DNA from: Amphirosellinia nigrospora
Lineage: Eukaryota; Ascomycota; Sordariomycetes; Xylariales; Xylariaceae
Direction of reading: 5' to 3'
DNA length: 64,000 nucleotides
Assembly (NCBI GenBank): GCA_004123355.1
Contig: SCHM01000005.1
Span: forward strand, 1,469,181 to 1,533,180
The notes below the pieces were generated by a model, which saw only the letters and a program-made list of their open reading frames with translations, did not search any database and was not told where the DNA came from. Shown one piece after another: positions 327-61,245 of the stretch; the stretch's first letter is position 1, and each line of letters opens with the position of its first letter. A program made the translations under genes and the position numbers.

Positions 327-459
327 AGATGGGCCGTCGGCCCGACGACAGCTGTTGGCAGCTGGCGGAGCCAGCTGCAGCCAGGCATATCTAAACAGGA
401 CAAACAGGTGCTACGCACCTTTAAATACAACGACTACTTCTCCCTCGCTCCTTCTTTCT
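327..459 (+). repeat. Family C solo terminal repeat, copy 1
   Basis: A 133-bp GC-rich island that begins AGATGGGCC and ends CTTCTTTCT, flanked on both sides by the 5-bp duplication ATTAT (322-326 and 460-464). Copies at 25421, 61114 and at both ends of the element 41304-47938 identify it as that element's terminal repeat, left alone. Three 3-nt-loop hairpins are visible: GGGCC/GGCCC (331-335/339-343), GCAGCTGGC/GCCAGCTGC (358-366/370-378) and AGGTGC/GCACCT (406-411/415-420). The 3' third is pyrimidine-rich (CTTCTCCCTCGCTCC). It keeps CpA and TpG dinucleotides, so RIP has hardly touched it although everything around it is saturated. Fungal RIP usually ignores repeats shorter than a few hundred bp, which would explain this. 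Read as a solo LTR; a MITE- or SINE-like unit is less likely because two copies bound a full element. Confidence 0.85.
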
Positions 460-2142: not shown

Positions 2143-2455
2143 TGTCAGCATATACGTCTAGTACTTAATTGGCCTAATAATAGATTATGTAATTACTAGT
2201 GCTTAGGTAGCTGTGTGGCATAATAGCACGTAGCTTTATATATGCGCCGGATATTACGTAGCACGCATAAAAAAAGCCTTTTTTACGCGGATAAAAAAAT
2301 ATTAAACTGCTATAGCTGCTTAAGCAGATTTTTAGTATTTAATAAAAAATAGCTTATTTAGTTTATAATTAAAAAACTAAAATATATAATAGTACGAATA
2401 TATTAATTAAGCTAACTAATTTAATATTGTTTTTAATATTAATATTATTTTTATA
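2143..2455 (+). repeat. Family A 5' LTR of A1
   Basis: 313 bp starting TGTCAGCATATACG. It is the best preserved family A LTR at its left end. It contains a TATA-like run, the segment AAAAAAAGCCTTTTTTACGC and the AGCTGCTTAAGCAG palindrome shared by all copies. It aligns end to end with 8986-9298. Confidence 0.93.
2235..2243 (+). promoter_or_regulatory. TATA-like box in family A LTR
   Basis: TTTATATAT followed by GCGCCGGATATT stands at the same place in every family A LTR (on the minus strand at about 33829-33837 in A2), about 90 bp into the LTR. Position and conservation fit the U3 promoter of the element. In sequence this AT-rich the motif alone is weak evidence. Confidence 0.35.
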
Positions 2456-2599: not shown

Positions 2600-5500
2600 A
2601 AAATATTAATATATTTAATAAAATAACTAATTAATAAATTAATTTAATAATAATTAAAAATAATAATATATAATTTAAAATATATAAAAATAACTATATT
2701 AAAAAAAAAAAAATATAATAAAATTACTAAAATTTTAAAAAAAAATTAAAAAATAATTTATTAATTATAAATATAAAATAAAGCTTATAAAAAAAAGTTT
2801 AATAAAATTATTAATAACTTAAAAAAATTAAATAAATTAAATAAAAAGTTAGTTTTAATTAATTAATTAATTTAATTAATTAAATAATTTAGCTAATAAA
2901 AATATATTCGAAATATTTAATAATAAATAATATTATTAAAATAATTAAAAAATATTAAGCTTTTTAGATAAAACGGCAAAAAAAATAAATAAGTTTTTTA
3001 AAAAGTTTAAATCGATCGATTTTAAAAAAAAAAACCGAAGCGTAATTTTACTAAAAAAAGTTTAAAAGTAAAAAAAAAAAAAAATTACTTTTATTTAAAT
3101 TTAAACTTAAATTTATTAATTATTATTATTATCGTTAATTTAAAAAAATTAATAATATTTATATTAAATATAAATATTATTTATTATAAAAAAATTTAAA
3201 AAGCTTTTATTTATAAATAAAATTAATTAAAATAGCGTAAATTTAAACTAAAGTTAATAAAAAAACTATTTAAAAAAAGCTTAAAACTATTAATATATTA
3301 ATATAATTTATATTTTATTATAAAAACTATTAAATATAATTTTAAAATTTTATTAGTTTATAAAAATTATACTAATATAAGCAATTATTAATATTAAAAC
3401 TAGCTTTTTTAAATTATTAAAAATATTAAAAAAAATTATATATATTAAAAATTTTTAATAAAACTTATATATAATAAGCTAAATATATTAAAAAAATATA
3501 TAAAATAATATTATTAATTATAAATATAATAAAAAAATTTAATATTTTTTATATTTAAATTTTTTAAAAATATAAAATATAAAAAACTAAAAAAAAAATA
3601 AATATAAACTAATAAGTTATAATATTTATAGCTATAATAAAAATAAAAATAGTTTAATATAATATTATTATTAAAGTTATAAAGTATAAAAAATATTATA
3701 TTTAAAATTTAGTTAATAAATTTAATAATAATTTTAAAAATATATAAAAAAAACCTAAATTAAAAAACTATAAAAAAAAAAATCTAAATAATATTATTAA
3801 TAAAAATAAAAGTTATAGCAAAAATAATAGCAAAAGTAAAAATTATAAATTAAACTTTAAATTAATTTTAAAAAAAAAATTATAAAAAAAAAAAGCCTAA
3901 ATATTTTAATATAGCTAATAAATTATATTATTAAAAATTGCTTTAATAAAAATAGTAATAACTAAAATTAAAACTTTAAACGATTAAAAATTTATAATAT
4001 TTATAGCAAGCTTATTAAAAGTTAAAACTATTTATAAGCTTCGAAAATAATTTTATTATTTTGCTTATATAAATATAAATATTTTATAAATTTAATAAAT
4101 TTTTATAATTATAAAATTAATTTTTTTTTTTATTATATTTAGTTTATTTTTTTTTATTTTAAATAATTATAATATTATTAATTATAAATAAAACTATATT
4201 ATAAAATAACTTTAAGCTAAAAAGTTATTATAGCTTAAAAACTTTAACTTAACTAATTTAAAAATTTTAATTTAAAAAATTTTAACTTAAAAACTTTAAT
4301 TTAAAACTTTAATTTAAAAAATTTAATTTAAAAATAATTTAGCTTTAATAATTATATTAAGCTAAAAAAAAAAATAGATTTATTTATAAAAAAATTATTA
4401 TAAACTTTTTATAAAAAAAAAACAACTATAGATTTATTTATTATAGTAAGTTTATTTATTAATTAAAAATAACGGATTTTTTATTAAATAAAACTAGCTT
4501 TAATAATAATAAATCTAAATAATTCGAAATTAATTATTATTAATAATTTAAAACTAATTATCGAGCTAATTATTAATAAAAAAACTATAATAGTAATATT
4601 TTTAATTATATTTATTTTTATATTTTTTTTAAAGCAATTTTAAACAATTTAGTTAAAAAAATATATTAATATTAAATTATTAGTAATAATGGACTAAATA
4701 TTAAATTATTATATAAAAAATATAATATTTTTAAATATATTTATATTTTAAAGAATTATTATATTTTATATAAGCGTTATATTTTATTTAATATAAATTA
4801 AATATAAAAATATATAATAAACTAACTTTAAAAAAAATTAATAGTAAATTTAACTAAAAAAAAAAAAATATATAGTTTATATAAAAAATAAACTATATAA
4901 ATTAAAAAATTAATACTTATAAAAAACTTTAAAACTTTTAATAAAAATAAACGTAATATAAACGTAAAATATATTTTATTTATTTTATTATTTTTATTAA
5001 ATATATTTTTAAAAAAATAACTATATAAAATAAAAAGTTATTTAAATAAATATATTATAAAAAATAGCTATAAAATAGCTATTATAAATTTTAATATATA
5101 ATAGTATAGTTTTTTTTATAAATATATAAAAAAAAAAACTTTATATAATATATTAACTTTAAAAAAAGCTATAAAAATTCGCGCTAAATATAATAAATAA
5201 AATTAAAACGTTAAAAAAATTATTATTTAAATTATTATTAAAAAAAAAATAAAAATAACTTTTAAAATTTAAAATAAATTAATTTTTTAATACTATTAGC
5301 TATATTATTTTAGCACTAAAAAATTAATATAAATAATTAAATATATTATAAATATTAATATTAAACTTAAAAAAGTTAAATATTTTTTTGTTTTATTTAC
5401 GATTAAATTAAAGCTAAAAAATATATTTCGAAAAAAGCTATTAAAAAAGCTAATTATTTAAAAAAAATAACTTAAATAAACTTTAGCTAAATTAAACTAA

Positions 5501-8260
5501 TTTCGATCGAAAAATATAAATTTTTTATTTATATAAATAATAATAATAAATATTATATTTTTAAAATATAAAATAAAAATAAAATAAAAAATATTATTAA
5601 AATATATTTATAATAAATAAATAAAAAATTAATATTTTAAATATTTTAATTTAATAAAAACTATTAAAAAAATATTACGTTTATATATAAATAATAAAAA
5701 GTTCGGTATAAAAGATTTAAAATATTTTATAATAAAATAAAAATAATTATTATTATTTTATTATTTATAAATTAATATTAAAATAATATAATTAAAAAAT
5801 CGATAGATTTTATTTAAAATAAAACTAAAGCTTTATTTTTATAAACTAAATTATTAATTATATTTTAAATATATAAAGTTTTAATAATTATATATATTTT
5901 TAATAAAACTATTAATTTATAATAAAAAAAGTAACTTTTAAAAAATATTTTAATTATTTAAATTAAAAAAAAAATAATAAACTAACTTTATAATTTATAA
6001 ATAATAAATATATTATATAATATTTATTAAAATTTATATATATATTAGCTAAAAACTAAAAGTTAAAAAAATAATTATATTTTTAATTATAAAATATATT
6101 TAATTATATAGTTTAGTTTACTAAAAATAATAAAATATTATATATATTATATATAATTTTTTATAAAAATATTAAAAATATAAATAACGTTTATAATTTT
6201 AAAATATTATATATTTTATTTTTTAAAATATAGCGTAAATTTAAGCAGCGTTATTAAAAATTAAAAATTTTATTTAAATATAAAACTACGATTATAATAT
6301 TATCGAAAATAATATTATAAATAGTAAAAACGAACTAAAAAAACGTAGCTAACTAAAAATAATATAAAACTAATTTTATTATTAAACGTAATAAAAAAAA
6401 CAAAAAAATTAATTAAAAGTTTATATTTACTATATAAAATAAATAAAAATTATTTTAATATAATTTATATTTTAAATATAATATTAAGCTAAAAAAGCAA
6501 AATATATATATAAATAATTTTATAAGCGATTTAAAATATAAAGCTAAAATAAATAAATTTAAAACTTAAAAATTAATATAATATTTATAGCTTATAAAAA
6601 CTAAATTAAATAAACTAATTATTTTTATATTTTTAAAAAGTTATTTTTATATAAATTATTTATAAAATTATTAAAAAATTTATAGTAAAAATATTTACTT
6701 TTAATAAACTTATTTTAAAAAAATACTTATAAAAAAAAATAAAAAAAATAGCTTAAAGCTATATTTAAAAAAATATATAGTTTATTTAAATAATATTTTA
6801 AAATTCGAAAATATATAAAACTATTTATAGCTATTTTATTAATTTTATATAAATATTTAAAAAAAATATTTATTAATTAATAAACTAAATAAATATAAAG
6901 CTAAAATTTATATTTATAGTTTATTTAGCGTAAAAATATTAATTATAATAAAACTTTTATTTTTATAGCTTAAATATTATAAAAATTTTAATAGCTTTAA
7001 TAGCTGTTCGAAAATAATATATTATTTAAATCGATTTTATAGTAGTATATTTTAATAGAAGCTTTTTATAAAAAAATATTTATAAAATAGTTTAAAATAT
7101 TAAAAAAATTTTAAAACTTTTAAATTAAAATAAAAAAAATATAACTAGCTAGTTAAAAAAATTATTAAACTAATAAACTTTTATATAGTTTTAAATAATT
7201 AAAATATAAATAATAAATTAAAACTAAAAAAATATAAATAAAATTAAATTTAAGCTTATAATTTTTAATAACGCTATATATATTAACTATAAAATAAAAA
7301 AAGTTATAATATTTTATATAAATAATTTTTTAATTATAAAACTTAATTTAAATTATTTAAAAATATTGCTATAAAAATTAATAAAATAGTTTTAACGAGC
7401 AATTTAACTAAACTAATTAGTTTTTAAGCGTATAAATCGTAAAAAATAAAATTAATAATAATATAAGCTTTAATTAAAAATAATATATAATTAAAATATT
7501 TAATTTTATTAGTTTAAGTTTAATATATAAATATTTTATATTTATAATATTAAAAAATAATTTATACTATAAAATATAAAAAAAAGCTTATTTTTAAAAA
7601 TAAAATATTTAATTATATTTTTTTATTTAATAAATTAAGTTTTTTTGCTTAAATTATAAAGCTTAATATAACTTTATTATTTTTATTTAAATAAAATTTA
7701 TATAAATTTTTTAATAAATATATTAAAATATAAAATAATTAGTTAAATATATAAAAAATATTTTAAATATATAAATTAAATATAATAAGAAAAAAAGCTA
7801 TTTATATAAAATTTATAATAATATAAGTTTATTATTATTATTAATATTATTTTAATATTAAATTTATAAAATAATAAATTATTAATAAAATATATTATAT
7901 TTTTAAATAAGCGCGTAATATTATAATATTTTAAACTATAATTAATTATAGCGAAAAACTTTATTAAAAATAAATATATTATAATAAATAAAGCAATAAA
8001 TAATTAATATAAATAAAAAATTTTTAAATAAATTTAAAATATTATTAAATAGTTTTATTATTTTTTATATAATAATATAAAACTATAAATTAGTTTAAAT
8101 ATATAGCTATATTAAAATAAAAAAATATATAAAAATAATATATTATTATATTAATTAAAAAATATAAGCTAATTATATTAAACTAATATATATAAAATTA
8201 AAAAATAATCTAGTTAATAAGTTAACTAAACTATTAAAAAAAGCTAAATATTAAAAGTTT
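2600..8260 (+). pseudogene. Copia gag-pol relic of A1
   Basis: The reading frame is destroyed: nearly every Gln/Arg/Trp position is a stop and several small indels shift phase, for example in the zinc knuckle, which is 2 bp shorter than in A3. Motifs in order are gag CCHC knuckle, repeat linker, aspartic protease, RT (K-Y-K-A-R, L-Y-G-L-K-Q around 7170-7195, Y-V-D-D as TAT ATA AAT AAT) and RNase H end. The integrase lies between about 4900 and 6200 by spacing, but I could not read its HHCC or DDE residues with confidence. Confidence 0.8.
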
Positions 8261-25420: not shown

Positions 25421-25552
25421 AGATAGGCCGTCGGCCCGACGACAGCTGTTGACAGCTGGCGGAGTCAGCTGCAGCCAAACATATCTAGACAGGACAAACA
25501 AGTGCTACGCACCTTTAATACAACAACTACTTCTCCCTCGCTCTTTCTTTCT
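25421..25552 (+). repeat. Family C solo terminal repeat, copy 2
   Basis: 132 bp, AGATAGGCC...CTTTCTTTCT, with the duplication ATTAT on both sides (25416-25420, 25553-25557), inserted in family E. A handful of G-to-A and C-to-T changes relative to copy 1, including two in the stem of the central hairpin, but GC-rich overall. The 61-codon minus-strand open frame at 25316-25501 exists only because this island crosses the RIP-mutated DNA. Confidence 0.88.
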
Positions 25553-33620: not shown

Positions 33621-33929
33621 TATAAAAATATATTAATACTAAAAAGTAATACTAAATTATTAATTTAATTAATATATTTATATTTTATATTTTTTAGTTT
33701 TTTAGTTATAAATTAAATAGGCTTTTTTATTAAATATTAAAGAATTTGCTTAGCAGCTATAATAGTTTAATATTTTTTTATCCGCGTAAAAAGGGCTTTT
33801 TTTACGCGTGCTGCGTAATATCTAGCGCATATATAAAGCCACGTGCTACTATGCCACACAGCTACCTAAGCATTAGTAATTATATAATCCATTACTGGGC
33901 TAATTAGGTACTAGACGTATATATTAACA
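33621..33929 (-). repeat. Family A 5' LTR of A2
   Basis: 309 bp; the outer part (about 33770-33929) is well preserved, with ACGTGCTACTATGCCACACA, CATTACTGGGC and the TATA-like ATATAAA at 33831-33837 on the complement. The inner edge is followed at 33609-33620 by the primer-site complement CGCTAGCTATTA. Confidence 0.92.
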
Positions 33930-39500: not shown

Positions 39501-41303
39501 TTAAACAAGCTATAGTTAATATTTTTTACTATTATATTATTTATTATGTTTATAATTATTAATAAATATAAAAAATATTTAAAACTAGATTTATTTTTTT
39601 AAAAATATATTTAATATTAAACTAAAACTATAATAAATATATTAACGCTATTATTAGCTTTATATTAAACTTAATAATATTTATTAATTATAGATTTATT
39701 TAATTAATAATTTTTTTCGTTATTTAATAATTAATAAATATTATTATTAAAATTATATATAATTATATTTAAACTTTAAAATATAGTATTTATATTAAAT
39801 AAAATATTTCTAGTTTTATTATACTATATTAATATTATTTTTAAATAATGTTTTATTTAAAAATAAAATAAGCTATATCGAATTAATAGCTAGTTATTAT
39901 TTGTTTTAGTTTTTATTTATATAAAAAACTATTATTTTATATTTTTTTTTTTAAAACGTTTAGCTTAATAAAATATAATTTAAATAAGTTTTAATATATG
40001 AAGTAATTAATATTTATTAATTATTTTTACAAAATTAAAAAGTTTTGTTTTTTTTTTTCCGTAAGCTTAAATATAATTTTTGCTGCTTATTTTTTTCGGG
40101 CTATAATAATAAAAAAATAGTTTTCGCTTTATATAATTAGCTAATAATTTAATTTTTTTTTAAAAAAAAAAAGCTTTTATTAATATTATAAAATAAACTT
40201 TTTTAAAAACTAATTATATTAATATATTTTAAAAGTTATTAGATTTTAAAGCTGCTTTAATTTAGCTATTATTTTTTTAATTATTTATTATTGTTAATTT
40301 ATAACTATTTATTATAAATTTTAATAATTTTATTGCTAAATATACTACGAATAATTTACTAGCTTTTAGTTTAAGATTAATTTTATTATATATATTTAGG
40401 ATAGCTTTTATATACTAGAAATATTTTTTAGCTATTTTAAAATAAATAATAATATTATTTATATAAGCATATAATATATATAATAAAAGCTTTTTATTTA
40501 TAAATTATTATATATAGCTAAAGCTATTTTTAAATTTTATTAATATTACGTATAATATTTTTAATTTTTAAACGATATAATAATTATTTAGTTATAATAA
40601 TTTAGTTGTACCGGAAACTAATAATAAAATTTTTTACAATTTATAATTATTATATATAATATTTTTAAATTTATATAATAATAGCTTTTAAAATAAATAA
40701 CAAATAATAGTTTAAAACTATTATTTATTTAATAATTATAAATCGATTATTATTTATTTTTATTTACTATTTATTGTTTGCTATATTATAAATATTAAAT
40801 ATTTAAACAATATTAGTTTATTTATATATATTATTTTATTTTTGCAATATATTTTATTTAAAACTTTATTTATTAGCTTTTAGTTTTTAATTTTTAAATA
40901 TATAGCCGGGCTATAATAATAATTTAATTCTACTAACCTTTAATTAGTTTTATTTATATTATATATTTTTTTTTATTTTTATAATATTTTACGTATATTA
41001 TATTTTATATTTTTTAATATTATTTTTAGTCGTTCTTATATATAAGGTTAGTTATATATATATAAATACTATTTTTAGTCCGAATAAAAAAAAGATTTTT
41101 AAAACGTTAACGCTAAAAAAAAATAATTTTTCCGGTATATTATATTTAAGTTTATTTTTTATTATTACTGCTTAAACGTTTTTTTAATAGCTTTTTTAAA
41201 ACTAATACGGTTATAATTATTTATTAAGTTAAATTTTTATAAACTATAAATTTACGTTATTTCTTTAGTAGTAATATTTTTATTTTTACTAGTAATAGCG
41301 GTT
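36600..41303 (-). pseudogene. Gypsy pol relic of B1 (part downstream of C insertion)
   Basis: Minus-strand pol remains. The RT signature is clear: A-Y-I-D-D-I-I-I at about 40468-40445, preceded by F-I-N-K-K-L-L-L-Y and followed by a K-A-x-L-N-I-Y-N-K-I-N-L-K-L-K-A-S-K type stretch that matches the Ty3/Gypsy RT layout. RNase H and integrase are expected between about 40 and 37 kb, but their catalytic residues are not legible to me. Stops in all frames. Confidence 0.75.
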
Positions 41304-41433
41304 AGATGGGCCGTTAGCCCGTTTATAGCTATTAGCAGCTAGCGGAGCCAGCTATAGCTAGATATATCTAGATAGAACAAATAGGTGCTACGTACCTTAA
41401 TATAACGACCACTTTTCCCTCGTTTTTTTTTCT
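41304..41433 (+). repeat. Family C left terminal repeat
   Basis: 130 bp, AGATGGGCCGTTAGCCC...TTTTTTTTTCT. RIP-type changes are frequent (GCTGGC to GCTAGC, CAGCTG to TAGCTA) and disrupt parts of the first and central stems, unlike in the solo copies. AGTATAAAAATAGGACACT follows at once; I could not match it to a tRNA. Confidence 0.9.
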
Positions 41434-44400
41434 AGTATAAAAATAGGACACTAAAAAAAAAAGTCTTTTATAAACAGTAAATACACCTAAGAATTAAATC
41501 CTAATAGCTTTATAGAAAGCATTTTATATAATATTAATATTATTATACTTGCTTTATTTATTAATTATTTGTTTAATTAAAATAAATAAAGCCTAAAGCA
41601 GTTATTTATAAGCGTTTTATTTAAAAACGCCTTTTAAAACTTAACTTTTAAAAATATTATTTAAATTTAAATAGTTTATTAATAAAGCTTTTAATTTTTA
41701 CTTAAAAACGATTATTTAATAATTAGTTAATTGTTTAATTTTTATAAATATAATAAAACTAGCGCAAGTAATATTAATTTTAATTTATACGAACATTTTA
41801 ATAATATTAAATTATTATTTAAATAGTTTTTAATAATTTATTTAATAATTTAAAAAATTAAGTATATTTAAAAAATATTATTTTTATTTAAAGTTATTTA
41901 TATTATTAATATTTTATATTAAAAAAACTATTATTTTTATAGATTTAAATATTAAGCTATAAAAAATTATAGAAAAAAATACTAATAATACTATTATAGT
42001 AAAAAATTTATTAAAACTATAATAATTTTTTAAAAATTAATATTTAAGCCGCTTAATAAATAATAAATTTATAAAACTAAAAATTTAATATATATTAATT
42101 AAAAAAAACAAGTTTTTTATTTAATATTATAATTATATTTAAAAAGCTATAAATAAATAAAAATCCGAAATATATTTAGGACTAGTACTATATTAAATAG
42201 TAAGGCTATAGCCGGATTTTTAATAAAAAATATTTTTTTATAAATAATTATTTTTAGATTTATTAATAGTTTTAAAAACTATAATTTATATTAAAAAGCT
42301 TTATTATAAAAAGCTATTAAATTAAAACATTAAAAAAATATTTTAAAGTTATTTAAAACGCTTTAAAAATAATTACTAATAAAATTAAAATAAAGAATAT
42401 ATAAAATAATAAAAAATAAAAACGATTCGTAAATTTTATATAAAACTTTAAATATTTTTATTAAATAAGCTGTTAAAAGTATTAATAACTTTTTTATATC
42501 GAAACAAATAATTTAACCGCTTTTATTAATTATTAGACCTTTATTTTTAACTGTTTTTAATTTATTTTGTTTAAAATCGCTTTTTTAGTTAATTTATTAT
42601 AATATAGTATATTTTACATAAAAGCAAATATACTAAAAAGATCGAGCAAACTAATTAGCTATTAAATATTATAATTATTATTAAACAGGGTATATATCGA
42701 AAGATGTTTTTATATATATTAATTAAAATTAAATAGAAATTAGTAAAATAACTTATATAATATAATAATAATAATAATAATAATATAGCTATAATAATAG
42801 CTATATAAATAAAAAAAAAATAAAAGCTATAGCTTATATAACTAAAAAAGTTATTAAAAATATAATAAACTATTTTTAAAATAATTTTTATTTATAAAGT
42901 ATTAATTATTTTTTAGTTAATAGTTTTAAAACTTTAAAAAAAAATAAAAAAGTTTATTTTTGCTATAATAAAAAAAGATATATATAGCTATAATATATAT
43001 TAAAACAAAATAAATAACTATAATAATAAAATAAACTTATTTAAAAGTAAAATATTATTAATATATAAATTTATATTTATAAAGCTTTATTTTTAAAAAG
43101 TTTAATTTAAGTTAGCTTAATTATATTATAATACGTTTATTAAAAAGTAAAAAAAAATATTTATTTTATAAATAAACATTTAATATATATAAAACGTTTA
43201 TATTTATATAATTTAGTTATAATAAAAATCTTTTTAAAATATTAAGCTATTTATTATATAAAATAATAAATAATAATATAACTTTAAAATAAAATTTATA
43301 AAACTTTATAGCTATACTTTAAACTATTTAATATTATAATAAACTAGCTATTAAAAATATAAAACTTTAAATAGCGTTTTAGTTATAGATTTAATAAATA
43401 ATAAAATAACCGAACATATATTTAAACCGCGCAAAATATATAACTTAAACATATTATTATAATTACTAAAAAAAATTAAAAGCAAAAAAAAAAAAACATA
43501 ATAAACTATAAAACTTTTTTATAATAAATTAAAATATTTATATTTTTTATAAACTTTTTTTAATTAAGCCTAAATTTTATTTATAATTTTAAATATTTAT
43601 TAACGCGAATTAAAAAAAAGCTAAAAATATAGCTAAAAAATATACTAAAATAAAAATTATAATTTTAATAATAAAAATATTAATTTATTACTATTAAACA
43701 TATTAAAATAACTTTAGTTATTAAATTTACTATTAAAAAAAATTATAATAAATATTATAAAAAAAAACTTTAATTAAATAAATTAAAAAATAATATTAAC
43801 TTTATTTATTTTAATATTATTAAAACTTTAATATTTAATCCGTTAATTATTTATTATAAAATAAAGTTTGCTATTTTATTAAATTTAAATAAAAAACTAT
43901 AAAAATTAATAAATTTATAATATTAATATAATAATTATAAATATTATTTGCTTTATATAAATAATAATATAACTATTAAAATAAAAAAAATATTTTTTTG
44001 CTATTAAAATTACTATAGCTTAAAATATTATAATATTATTTAATATTTAAAGTTTTTTTTATTATAAAAAACCCTAGCGCTAAAAAAAAACTAATAACGT
44101 TAAAAAAGCTAATAATATTATTAAAAATATTTATAAATTAACTTTTTATATAAAAAAATACTAATATTATAAAAAAATATATAAAAATATATTAAAATTT
44201 AATATAAAAAATAATAATAATAAAAATTATATAAATAAAAATATTTGAAACATAAATTATTAAACTAAACTATTAGCTTTAATTTAGCTAAGTTATTAAA
44301 TTAGCTAATATAAAATACTATTTATTTTTTCGGATTATATTTAATTAAAATATATATCTACGTTTTAAATATAATATATTTAAAAAAATAAATATATAAA

Positions 44401-47400
44401 TAATTTTATAGTTATTAATTATATTAGCTTTTAATATATTATATTTAGATTAGTTTATTATATTAAAAAAAAGCAAATTATATAATACGTAAAAAAAAAC
44501 TAAAAGTTAAATTTTTTACCGATCGAAAATAACGCGTTAATTAATTATATTAAAAAAAAAATACCTAACGAAATAATACGCAAATAATAATTTTTTATAA
44601 AATTATAGTTTAGCTTTTTAATATTAAAATAAATAATAAACACTTATATATATATTAATATATATATAAAAATTATAGCGTAATAAATATTAAAAATATA
44701 ATAAAACTTATTAATTTTTTTATATATAAAAAAAGCTAAAAAAAATAAAACTATAAAATAAATTAATTAAACGTTTTAATTATATTTAAACTTATATTAG
44801 CTAAATATTTTAATTAAATAATATATAACATAAATATATTTAAATTATTATAGCTAATAAAAGTTTTTTTAAACTAAATAGCTATATTAGTTTTAGTTAG
44901 TAAAATAAAAATTATAATATAAAAACTATAAAAAAAGCCCTAACTTATATTAAACTATAATAAAAAAAAAAAAACTTTTTAAATATTAGCTTTTTTTTGT
45001 TTATAAATATATAAAAAACTAAATATTTTATAATTAGCTTATATTATAAGTTTAATTTAAAATATAAAATATATTATATATAATATTAATAATATATTAT
45101 ATATATATTTATATTTAAAATAATTAGGTTTTTTTAACTATAATTATAAAATACTAAAACATAAATTTAATTAGCTATATATTTTATATTAAAATAATAA
45201 AAAATTATATTTAGATTTATATTAACTTTTAACCCGAACTATTTTATTATTATTAAAACTTCGGATATTTTTTTTTACGTATATAAAATATATTAATAAT
45301 ATATTTAGTTTATAAAAACAATTAAAAAATAACTAAAATAAATCGAACATATATTTTTGCTAAAAATATTATAGTTAAAATTAAAATTATTATTTAAAAA
45401 ATATTAATTAGATATAATAAAATAAAAGCTTTAAAAATAGTTTATAAAATTTATAATAAAATAATAATTAAAAAAAGCAAAACTAAACGCTTTAAAAACT
45501 AGCTAGTATTAAAAACTAAATAAAATAAAAAGTTTATAAAAACTATAAACTTTACTTACAAATAAATAAAAAATTGTTTTAAAATAGTTTAATTTTTAAT
45601 ACGTTTTTAAAAAAACATACTATAATAATAAAACTTAGCAAAATATTCGTTTTTAAATTATTAAGCTTATTAATAGCTACTACTATAAAAATATATAATT
45701 ATATTATAAATTAATTTATTAAAATATATTTTAATACGTTTGTTTATAAAAAAAAATATTATATTTTATACTACTAAAAAAAATACTTAAGCTTATACTA
45801 TATAATAATTTTTTATTTATTTTAATATAAAAAAATTATAATATTTATAAAAAAAAATTATACGCTATTATAAAATTCTACTAAAAATATAAAAAATACT
45901 TTAAGTTTAAAAATATATTTATTATTTATATAAATATAAACTATTTTTTTTTTTTTAATATCGCTAAATTGAAAATATTTATATAAAATAAATAAATAAA
46001 CTATAGTTTTTTAACGTTTGTATTATTTATATTATAAGCTTAAAAAATATAATAATAAACGTATTATTATATATTATATTTTTTTTAAATAACTATTTAA
46101 ATAATTTATTATATTATAAAAATTAATAAAAATTTAAAAAAATAAATTTAAAAAAATAAAATAAATAAATATTAACGAATATTATTAATATATAACTTAT
46201 AGAAAAAAAATATTTATTAATAAACTATACAAAAATATATTATAGCGTTTAAACTAATAAAACTATAAAATTAGTTAGATAACTTTAAAAAAAATATAAA
46301 GCTTAATATAATATATATTTAATAATATTAATAAATTAATTTTACTTTAGATTTATTATTATATTATTTTAATAATAATTTAATATTAAATAATATATTA
46401 AAAAATAAGTTTATTTATTTTTTTAGTATTTAAATATATAAAAATATTTATATAAGTTAAAAACTTAATAATTAAAAAAAAGCTAAAATATATAGCACTA
46501 GTATATAAAACTAAAAACTTTAAAATATAAAGCGGTTAGCTAAAATATTATTTTAAAAACTACTAAAAATAATATTTATATAAAAAAAAATATTAAATAT
46601 ATTATAATAAGCATATAACCTATTAAGTTATTATTATTTTAATTATTTTAAAAAAATAAACTAATTAATATATTAGCTTATAATAACTATAAATATATAT
46701 TAAATACGTATTAAAATATTATAATATATTCGCTTTAACTTTAGAAAAATAATAGCGCCCGATTTATTTATTACTATTTATACTATATTTTAAATTATAT
46801 AATAAATTCTATTAAACTTTTTTTAATATTTATATAAAAAATTAATATATTTATTATATAATAAACTATTTTAGTTAATATAGCTAATATTATTTACGAT
46901 TGATTATATAAATATAAAATAATACTAAAATAAAACGTTAAATTAATAAACGGGCATTTTATTGCTAATATTATATACTAATTTAAAAAGCGTTTTTATT
47001 TTATAAAACTTCTAAAATTATATAAAAAACAAAAAAATAAAAATAATTAACGTTTTATTAGCTTATATTAAAACGTTAAACTAGTAAAAATATTTAATAA
47101 AATAGCGCAAATAATATTTAATAAAATAATAATTTATTTTATAGTTTAAATAAATAACTTAAAATATAAAAATAATAAGTTATAAAATATAAAATTTTAC
47201 TATTAATAAAATATTTAAACTTTAAATATATAAAAACTATTAAATATAGTTTAGCTAAATTATTATATAAATATTATTTAAAAAATATTTAAATAAATAT
47301 ACTTATTATTTAATATTATTAAGCTAAAAATAGTTTTAACTATAAATAAATTTAAATTATTAAATAAAAGTTATAAATAAACTTAACTATATAATATATC

Positions 47401-47694
47401 GAATAATTTTAATATTAATTAAAAAAAATTAAATAAATATATAAAAAGTTTAAACAAAAAGTAAGCTTTTTATAACTATAAATTATAACTTAAGGTCGAA
47501 AACCTAGTTTTATTTATTAAAACAAAAAATAACTAAAATTAGGACCTAAATAAAAAAAGCTATTTAAGTTTATATTAAAATAAAAAAAATTACGTATTAA
47601 AAATTTAAATAGATTAAAAGTTATAAAAAACTAAATTTTTATAAAATTTATTAAAATTATTTATACTAAAAGTTACTTATAAACGAAAAAAATA
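41434..47694 (+). pseudogene. Unidentified coding relic inside element C
   Basis: A-rich, RIP-saturated interior of 6.3 kb without an intact frame. Reading TAA as mutated Gln/Arg gives protein-like local runs, notably LPIENNALINYIKKKIPNE around 44515-44580 and an acidic or basic helical stretch near 45430-45600, but none matches a family I can name with confidence. There is no CX2CX4HX4C knuckle, Y-x-D-D or protease D-S-G that I can defend. De-RIPping with several genomic copies would be needed to classify it. Confidence 0.45.
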
Positions 47695-47772
47695 AGGAAT
47701 ATATATTACTTTTAAAATAGTTTATATATAGACCTAAATAGATCTAGATTTGATATTTAGATATTTAGAGGA

Positions 47773-47788
47773 AGCGCGGGGGCGCGCT
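47773..47788. other. GC-rich hairpin before C right repeat
   Basis: AGCGCG and CGCGCT form a perfect 6-bp stem with a GGGG loop, 18 nt upstream of the right terminal repeat. The surrounding 47755-47806 keeps TG and CC/GG dinucleotides (GTGTTTTGCTCCGG), in contrast to the interior just upstream. Confidence 0.7.
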
Positions 47789-47806
47789 AGTGTTTTGCTC
47801 CGGACT

Positions 47807-47938
47807 AGATAGGCCGTCGGCCCGTCTATAGCTGTTAGCAGCTGGCGGAGCTAGCTGCAGCTAGATATATTTAAACAAGATAAATAAGTGCTACGCACCT
47901 TTAATATAACGACTATTTCTTTTTCGTTCCTTTTTTCT
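47807..47938 (+). repeat. Family C right terminal repeat
   Basis: 132 bp, AGATAGGCC...CTTTTTTCT; less mutated than the left repeat. The central stem retains AGCTGGC/GCTAGCT, and the third hairpin GTGC/GCAC is intact. Followed by the duplication CGGTT and the resumption of Gypsy copy B1. Confidence 0.9.
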
Positions 47939-50900
47939 CGGTTATAATTATACTAGCCTTATTTTATATTATTAACAAATATTTATTTTATTTATAATTT
48001 TTAATAATATTTATTTTATTTTATATTTAACCTAAATTAGCTTATTTATATAATTAATAAAAAAAACAACTTTAAATTTTATTTAAATAGATTTACTATT
48101 AATATTAATATATTCTAGTTCGAATATATAGTCCTATATAAAACTTTAATATTTAAATTAAAAAAATTTATATATTTATTAATATGCTACTATTATATAT
48201 AATAAAACTATTATTAATTATTACAATAGTTTTTTTTATATTCGATTTTTTTTTTATTTAATCGTAAATAAATTATTAAATTATTATATAATTTTATTAT
48301 AATAATTTAGCTTAAAAAATTAATATTAATATTATATTTCGCTTTAAACTTTATTTTAAGCAATATATTTAGTCGAAATTTATTTATTAGCTATATTATT
48401 ATTTTAATTAAACCGTTTTTATTTATATTATTTATAGTTTTTTTAAAGTTAACGTTAAAATAATACGTTTTATTAAGCTAATTATTCCGCTAATATTACG
48501 TATATTTAAAGTTTATTTAGTTTAAATTTATATTTCTAGTATAAATTTTACGATTTATTTATAATCCGCTAATATTATTAAATAATTTATATTAAAATAT
48601 ATTATTATATTTTATATTTTTTACTTTATTTATATATTTACGTTTATATATTAATATAAAACAAACATTTAAAATATATTAAAGGCTATTATTTATAGTT
48701 ATATAATAATAATATCGAATATTTTATCCGATATAAAAGCGTTTATTTTAAAAAGCTTCGCTTAATATAGTTTATTATTTTAGCTTTATTTATTAGTTTA
48801 TTTTAAAAATATATATTTTAACGATATTATTATATAATATAATAAACTAAAAATTTTATTTTATTTAAAAATTCTTGCTTATAATTATAATAAATAAAAA
48901 TATTTATATCGCTTATTAATTAATTTTAAATAATTATATTAGTTTTAATTAAATAAGAAAAAATAATAGTTAGTTTATTTTTTTATTAAAATATTTTATA
49001 AAAAATTTTTTTTTGTTTTTTTTTTCGATTTATTTACTATAATATAATTTTATTTTTTTAATTTTTATTTTTAGGACTAAATATTTTAATTATTTAATAT
49101 TAATATTATTTTATTTTTTATACTAATATATACGCCGTTTAATATTTATTAAAGTTTAATTTATTAATAATATATTTGCTAGAACAAGCAATAAATATAA
49201 TAAAAACGTTTATTTTGTCCGCTATATTTATAATAGCTTTATTATTTTATAATTTTATTTACTATAAAAGTTTTTATAACTATTATATAAACTTTATTAT
49301 TTTTTAAAACTATTATATAAACTTTATTATTTTCGGCTATATTTATTATCGCTAATAATTTATAAAAAATTTTTAGCTGCTTTATATATATTTAGTATTA
49401 TATTTTCGATTATAAAATAATATTTATTATTTTTATTATAAAATAATATTTACTCCGATTATTTATGCTTTAATTATATATTTTATTATATTAATATTAA
49501 TTATTTAATTAATTAAAAAATTAACTATAAATATTAAATTAATAATTAAAGTTTTAAAAAGCATAAAAATATTTATTATTTAGAATTAAATAATACGCTA
49601 AACAAAAATAAGCTATATTTATTATAGCTTAATTTAATATTTATAGCTATAATATTATATATAATAACTTTTTATTTATTTTTTTTAAATATATTAAAAA
49701 ATATTTAAATTTATAATCGTTATTAGTTTATTATAAATTTACTAAAAGTTTAAATATAATATATTTTATATATATATTATAAATTAAAACTTTATATTTA
49801 TATTATAATTATAATAGTTCTAGATTATTTTTATTGCTTATATACAGATAAATATATTTTTTAGGATTTTTGCTTTATATATAAATTTTTTAATATATTT
49901 TAAAAAACGTTTATAATATTCTAATAATATTTAAAATTAATTTTTCGTAGTATAAATTTAAAACTTTGTTTTATAGCTATTTTTATAATTTTATTGAATA
50001 TTTTAATATATTATATTTAAGCTTTTTTTCGAAAAAATTAAAAAAATTATTTTATAAAATTTTTTACTTAATAAGTTTAAAGCATACTATTTTATAAACG
50101 CTATAAATAAATAAACATTCTATTAATATATATTGCTGCTAAATATAATATATTTTTTAATTTTATAAAATTTTAAAAAATTTATATTAAAATAACTTAT
50201 TAATTATATTTTTAGTTATTTTTAAACGTTATTTTTATTATTAACGTTTAGCTATTATTTTAACTATATTCGAAATATTTTTTATTAATATTTTAATAAA
50301 ATTTTAGCTATTATTATTTTTATAGCTAAAATAATTTTTATAGCTTTTTGCTATATTTTTTTATTTAGTAGCGTTATTATTTTATTTACTAGAATAAAAA
50401 ATATAAAAATAAAATAAAATATTTTAATAAATTTAAAACTAAATTAAAATTAAAAATTAGTTAAATAATTTAAAAACTATATATAGTTTAAATCGAAGTA
50501 TAATTTTAATTTTAAATATATATAGCTTAAACTATAATAAATATACGTTATTTTTATTTTTTTATTATTTTTATTAATTAAACTATATATTAGGCTATTT
50601 TACGTTAAGCTTTTTTAAAAAAATATTAAAATAAATAAAAAAAAATATTTATTAAAACTTTTAAATTAATATTAAATATTATTTATATTCGATAATATTA
50701 ATTTAGTAATTATAAATAAAAATTATTATAATAATTTAATTAAATATATAATTATTTATTTAAATTATAATATTATAAGCAGTATAATTGTTTAAAATTT
50801 AGTTTATAAAATAATTCGCTTTTTATAGCTATAATTTAATTGCCCGTTAATAAAGTTAATTAAAAAAAAGTTATAAAAACTTTAATATATATCGAAATAT

Positions 50901-61113: not shown

Positions 61114-61245
61114 AGATGGGCCGTCGGCCCGACGACAGCTGTTAACAGCTGGCGGAGCCAGCTGCAGCCAGGCATTTCTAGACAGGACAAACAGGTGCTA
61201 CGCACCTTCAATACAACAACCACTTCTCCCTCGCTCCTTCTTTCT
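61114..61245 (+). repeat. Family C solo terminal repeat, copy 3
   Basis: 132 bp, AGATGGGCC...CTTCTTTCT, with the perfect duplication ATATT (61109-61113, 61246-61250). The best preserved copy with copy 1: all three hairpins are intact, including the 9-bp central stem. Essentially free of RIP. Confidence 0.9.

Follow-up and report, generated by a model that had tools for sequence, protein, structure and literature searches.

Gypsy-type solo LTRs have been tabulated in AT-rich, RIPped DNA of Aspergillus flavus (PMC9910759; this and the other sources on elements and RIP are cited from excerpts). In the excerpt of PMC5445492, the fungal GalEa Copia elements are described as 5428 to 7018 bp long, with 5-bp target-site duplications (TSDs) and LTRs from 138 bp upward. 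No primer-binding site (PBS) is found for them there, the polypurine tract (PPT) is variable, and a Conserved Hairpin Site lies at the LTR junction. Their LTRs end in TGT...CA, and the motif CHSeq1, CTGATCAGT or CTAATTAGT, occurs in 85% of the families (PMC5445492). In the Zam clade of animal Metaviridae, the LTRs start with AG, with the ends AGTTA...TAATT or TAACT (excerpt of PMC3601003). In Neurospora crassa, RIP has a minimum repeat length of 400 bp (excerpt of PMC10294615).

The DNA analyzed here, referred to as the window, is a stretch of 64,000 nucleotides at the end of a contig (C7:1469181-1533180). At positions 327 to 459 it carries a GC-rich unit, which we read, with a probability of about 0.87, as the roughly 132-bp LTR of a retrotransposon of about 6.6 kb, whose solo copies are spared because they are too short for RIP. 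Like the Gypsy elements excerpted from A. flavus, it occurs as solo LTRs in AT-rich, RIP-mutated DNA (PMC9910759), and in two of eight distinct loci a purine/pyrimidine-coded search with a Ty3-ordered Pol from this genome gave a weak match, at one element position. It differs from those elements, compared by description, in its AG...CT ends, in the lack of a recognized PBS and an adjacent PPT, and in a Pol that ordinary searches missed.

With the GalEa Copia elements, as excerpted, it shares the 5-bp TSD, the element size, the short LTR, the lack of a recognized PBS, and, in the copy L027, a possible hairpin at the junction; the variable PPT of GalEa was also counted as a likeness. However, the ends are AG...CT and not TGT...CA, and the sequence after the LTR in L027 is GGTAACAAG and not CHSeq1; by these two marks the unit does not qualify as GalEa Copia. 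A Copia query scored as the null did. The AG start in place of TG is also found in the excerpted Zam-clade LTRs, but the unit has the ends AGATG...TTTCT, the comparison being one of end motifs alone.

Copies of a GC-rich terminal repeat

The unit at 327-459 (forward strand, 133 bp, ends AG...CT) is flanked by ATTAT on both sides, at 322-326 and 460-464, and was identified as a solo LTR by genome search, alignment, and TSD comparison. The first-pass annotation had described three stems with 3-nt loops inside 90 bp, and these are exact and perfect here: GGGCC(GTC)GGCCC at 331-343 (arms 331-335 and 339-343), GCAGCTGGC(GGA)GCCAGCTGC at 358-378 (arms 358-366 and 370-378), which is based on two palindromic CAGCTG words, and AGGTGC(TAC)GCACCT at 406-420 (arms 406-411 and 415-420). 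The pyrimidine-rich tail said to follow them is present at 437-459 and would correspond to the U5-like part of the LTR. Conserved solo copies had also been named at 25421 and 61114. Both exist on the forward strand (25421-25552, TSD ATTAT/ATTAT; 61114-61245, TSD ATATT/ATATT), and the flank GC of 0.08 to 0.12 at all three solo copies agrees with the A/T-rich surroundings described for them. The stems, however, are imperfect in these two copies, with one pair broken per stem at 25421 and one broken pair, in stem 2, at 61114. In addition to the copies named earlier, the unit is found at 41304 and 47807, flanking 6.4 kb of internal DNA.

The three 3-nt-loop stems at 327-459 exceed chance. Under a post hoc counting rule (3-nt loop, stem of at least 5), adopted from the first-pass annotation, which was made with the sequence in view, the unit has four hairpins, two of which overlap. 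At least three such hairpins arose in 5 of 20,000 dinucleotide shuffles and a stem of at least 9 in 7 of 20,000, and the summed stem length of the unit was matched by none of 20,000.

A search of the genome (48 Mb, 11 contigs) with the unit found the LTR on C1, C2, C6, C7, C9, C10, and C11, at 30 places and one fragment (C9:1119565-1119612, part of the copy L021). Because this search missed the LTR at 41304, the copy numbers are lower bounds. After this copy was added, and with L001 to L008 and L012 excluded as duplicates of other loci, the alignment set comprised 31 copies, 19 solo and 12 attached to internal DNA. "Solo" means that no internal DNA adjoins the unit within the roughly 60 bp inspected; element remnants occur near L021 and L025. 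Similarity ends abruptly, at AG on the left side and at CT on the right side, with some blurring in RIPped T runs, and solo and attached units have the same ends.

Perfect 5-bp TSDs flank 12 of the 19 solos, and every one of the 12 starts with A. When the pairing was permuted (20,000 re-pairings), the number of perfect TSDs averaged 1.4 and never exceeded 8, compared to the 12 observed. Among the remaining seven solos, one shows agreement at four of five positions and six at three or fewer. An AT-rich flank is present on at least one side of 30 of the 31 copies, the exception being L018, with a surrounding GC of 0.44 to 0.48. Since both TSD copies are AT-rich and matching in most of the 12, we infer that most TSD-bearing insertions entered DNA that was already AT-rich. 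In the copy at C6:7328939-7329051, the loop of stem 2 is TCC where most copies have its reverse complement, GGA; this hairpin may have been inverted.

The full-length element of the window lies on the forward strand and consists of a RIP-mutated 5′ LTR (41304-41433), a heavily RIP-mutated internal region (41434-47806), and a RIP-mutated 3′ LTR (47807-47938), enclosed by the TSD CGGTT at 41299-41303 and 47939-47943. Direct terminal repeats around the internal region are also found in L027 and in the pair L034/L033, which has AGCGT on both outer sides. The TSD of the L027 pair agrees at three of five bases in the fixed frame and matches only with one end set two bases earlier; perfect TSDs are thus present in two of the three LTR pairs tested, which comprise six of the 12 attached LTRs. 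Six of the 12 attached LTRs are followed by a common sequence, which starts with GGTAACAAG in L027, the least mutated copy, and six are preceded by a common sequence ending in GGACT (five of six) or AAACT (one of six). The internal region itself recurs in the genome, with 25 matches in one search and at least 263 pieces in another. In their anatomy, the paired copies correspond to an LTR retrotransposon and the single units to solo LTRs. The earlier reading of the unit as a terminal repeat that also occurs alone therefore stands, with 19 of 31 copies solo and a pair that brackets 6.4 kb with CGGTT.

RIP in solo and attached copies

Solo and attached LTRs differ in base composition. The median GC is 0.54 in the solos versus 0.39 in the attached LTRs (P = 0.0004), and a GC of at least 0.50 is found in 13 of 19 solos versus 1 of 12 attached LTRs (P = 0.002). 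Exceptions exist on both sides: among the attached LTRs, the 5′ LTR of L027 is unmutated, and among the 19 solos, 6 are RIPped. Transitions are commonest at CpA (221 of 580, or 0.38, compared to 0.14 to 0.20 in other contexts), which is the pattern of RIP. The unit is largely spared by RIP, as had been noticed from the window, and the sparing tracks the solo state and not the hairpins. A solo LTR of about 132 bp is below the RIP length known from N. crassa, a threshold taken over from that species. Short length, rather than structure, best fits the sparing and is probably the reason that RIP has left the unit recognizable.

We propose that the element inserted with 5-bp TSDs, mostly into DNA that was AT-rich beforehand. 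Solo LTRs would have arisen through recombination between the two LTRs of an insertion, with loss of the internal part. Copies that kept the internal part would be long repeats and would have been RIP-mutated, LTRs included; the solo units of about 132 bp, below the length that RIP needs, would have stayed GC-rich. The unit is a real but ordinary element end, made conspicuous by its escape from RIP. It provides an internal control for the length dependence of RIP: most solo units escape mutation, and most units of the same sequence joined to a 6.4-kb repeat do not.

The palindromes, three CAGCTG words followed by the pyrimidine-rich tail, would be cis signals of the LTR. Their most likely role, which we put forward tentatively and at somewhat under even odds, is that of protein-binding sites of the LTR promoter. 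A further scenario is a long shot: in an LTR below the RIP threshold, the palindromes might favor LTR-LTR recombination and use GC-type words that are rarely RIPped, so that the element leaves unmutated promoter islands in RIPped heterochromatin, possibly centromeric, which could drive local transcription.

Outside the five LTR copies, the residual C and G of the window (1-64000) lie mostly in the contexts ACT (28%), GCT (21%), and ACG (11%), and CCA and TCA are almost absent from its AT-rich DNA. A second short GC-rich repeat lies in AT-rich DNA at 2188-2275 (forward strand) and 33779-33885 (reverse complement). This repeat has at least 40 genome matches (40 scored of 87 candidates), on C2, C4, C5, C6, C7, C8, and C11, and is probably the end of another element.

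Stem changes and alternative readings

The first-pass annotation had raised the possibility of a conserved structure acting in RNA or DNA, to be checked through compensatory changes in the stems. Two-sided changes that keep the pair were found in 38 cells (31 copies, 20 pairs), and in all 38 both arms carry C>T or G>A. The expectation without structure, from site and copy rates (18 copies, 16 pairs), is 35.7. Such two-sided changes arise without any selected structure wherever an inverted repeat has CA in one of its arms and TG opposite, as RIP mutates both strands. The four stem changes that are not of RIP type each break a pair; across the 31 copies, no pair-keeping two-sided change other than the RIP type was seen. 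Conserved structure is unsupported by these counts, and structure by covariation was rejected. Likewise, the paired CpA/TpG columns are not specially correlated, with phi values of 0.50, 0.61, and 0.29 versus a mean of 0.38 (standard deviation, 0.22) over 190 column pairs. L021 and L025 were omitted from the phi and context counts and partly from the substitution counts. These two copies have a common 23-bp deletion and are without the left arm of stem 2, while their flanks differ: L025 has AAAAA on both sides, a weak match in AT-rich DNA, and the flanks of L021 agree at one of five positions.

RIPped inverted repeats are therefore a trap, in that they show apparent compensatory pair changes without selected structure, and covariation tests on fungal repeats should exclude C>T/G>A pairs. 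A literature search on covariation with RIP and inverted repeats returned nothing on point by title, which leaves absence from print unproven.

Stem evolution is not entirely as neutrality predicts, since columns with a transversion make up 3 of the 32 G/C columns in stems but 13 of the 39 elsewhere (P = 0.022). The A/T columns give 1 of 8 in stems and 14 of 44 elsewhere (P = 0.41). Non-RIP changes affect 15 of 272 loop cells and 4 of 1,216 stem cells. Mild sequence constraint on the stems is possible, of the kind that protein-binding palindromes would give. Rfam 15, ribozymes included, gave no match at gathering score in the window, L027, L059, L060, or L061, and the six matches within 250-520 all fall far below the gathering scores; membership in an Rfam or ribozyme family was rejected.

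A selected structure, in RNA or DNA, is an unlikely reading of the hairpins, whether for dimerization or packaging of the genomic RNA, as a 3′-end signal, or for integrase recognition. Such a role would agree with the excess of 3-nt-loop hairpins over shuffles, with the scarcity of transversions in the G/C stem columns next to variable loops, and with the somewhat unusual single-stranded DNA folding of 327-459 (z = -2.35; 4 of 200 shuffles equally good). A palindrome near the 5′ end of the yeast Ty3 RNA, moreover, mediates dimerization in vitro (excerpt of PMC11381356). However, RNA folding is unexceptional (z = -0.99 for 327-459, -0.87 for the copy at 61114, 0.03 for that at 25421, and -1.25 for the 5′ LTR of L027). 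The compensatory changes are all of RIP type and close in number to the expectation, the other stem changes break pairs, and L021 and L025 lack the left arm of stem 2.

Far less probable is protection of the unit from RIP by the hairpin structure or by a protein bound there, an idea suggested by a GC-rich unit within AT-rich DNA and by the smaller loss of C/G letters from the stems of the 12 attached LTRs (103 of 384 mutated, versus 221 of 522 in the rest). C after G is seldom RIPped here (GCT, 13 of 180; GCC, 21 of 161), and the lower stem figure arises because the stems are rich in such C. At CpA/TpG cells, stems and other positions are mutated alike, both in the 12 attached LTRs (59 of 96 versus 94 of 141; P = 0.49) and in the six RIPped solos (23 of 48 versus 31 of 72; P = 0.71). 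When the 18 RIPped or attached copies are stratified by both neighboring bases, 144 stem cells are mutated versus 148.8 expected (z = -0.91), and shielding was rejected because stem mutation is close to the context expectation. We give just as little credence to a tiny MITE- or SINE-like mobile element whose pairs around 6.4 kb are chance neighbors. Although the 19 solos and the TSDs that 12 of them have to themselves would suit it, CGGTT in the window and AGCGT at L034/L033 span the pair and not each unit, the attached units adjoin common internal sequence, six per side, and the terminal inverted repeat is no longer than AGA/TCT. An independent MITE or SINE was rejected on account of the TSDs common to whole pairs.

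Internal region and possible superfamily of the proposed retrotransposon

Within the retrotransposon of which we take the unit to be the LTR, the internal region of the window copy (41434-47806) has a single stop-to-stop frame of at least 60 amino acids (78 amino acids, antisense). L027 (1075-7632, reverse strand) displays a sharp RIP gradient within one element: its internal GC is 0.45 to 0.51 over the first 1.5 kb or so and 0.10 to 0.23 past 2.4 kb, and its last 300 bases, LTR included, have a GC of 0.29. Read by eye, the unmutated part resembles an interrupted gag region and shows two CCHC-like stretches, the first of which spans a frame break; Pfam, run on six pieces, gave no match that would confirm it. 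For reverse transcriptase (RT) and integrase, Pfam gave no match in read-through frames. Among the matches listed for RVT_1, RVT_2, and rve across the genome, none lies at the places of this element, by inspection, and tblastn with 23 open reading frames of at least 180 amino acids from six retroelement loci (none from L057 or L058) reached a best E value of 0.16. Pol would be too RIP-mutated for such ordinary searches.

A purine/pyrimidine-coded protein search is insensitive to transitions and suited to RIPped DNA, and its positive controls scored 702.0 and 482.6 versus null means of 53.1 and 72.6. The query L054 is a Pol from the same genome, called Ty3-ordered because RVT_1 precedes rve, and the segment used was picked after an earlier run had been seen. 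It scored 82.6 in L046, 81.3 in L047, and 79.0 in L061, with the alignments ending at element position 5074-5084, versus null means of 49 to 51 and null maxima of 59.5 to 74.2; a known RIPped Ty3-ordered control gave 82.7. Because L047 and L061 represent a single locus, the copies have a common descent, and the query segment was not fixed in advance, this Ty3-like match counts as one observation. At six of the eight distinct loci, the window copy included, scores with the L054 query did not exceed the null maximum.

In L046 and L061, further Ty3-ordered queries scored as high as 77.4, at different positions, and two unclassified RT proteins (L052 and L053) scored 63.6 and 62.6 in L027 in one run, versus five-null maxima of 55.9 and 51.3. 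A Ty3-ordered query scored 164.2 on the antisense strand of the control L064, which also inflates one null of the L054-segment run. The Copia query was indistinguishable from the null (mean, 53.7 versus 54.0). From these coded comparisons, a Ty3-like superfamily would be a little favored over the alternatives.

The LTR ends are AG...CT and not the canonical TG...CA. No tRNA PBS was recognized after the LTR in a partial comparison with tRNAs. The 13-base complement of the post-LTR stretch has four exact occurrences in the genome, one of them inside the element itself, and ARAGORN found no tRNA at the other three. A PPT adjoining the 3′ LTR is absent in six of six copies; the window copy has a G-rich stretch, GAAGCGCGGGGGCGCGC, about 20 nt upstream of the 3′ LTR, the adjoining bases not being purine-rich. 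At the place expected for the PBS, L027 has a possible stem over the junction of 5′ LTR and leader (7425-7545, reverse strand; CUCCCUC with GAGGGA). The whole folded sequence has a z of -0.96, and L027 is the only copy unmutated at this point; the stem could hint at hairpin priming.

The RVT_1 genome search also returned five RT matches of equal score (99.2 bits), without stops and in open frames of 757 to 1,075 amino acids, at C1:5499608, C1:12638343, C4:2326918, C4:7647740, and C4:7655988. They perhaps represent a recently spread family, in which case RIP would now be weak or rare in this lineage.
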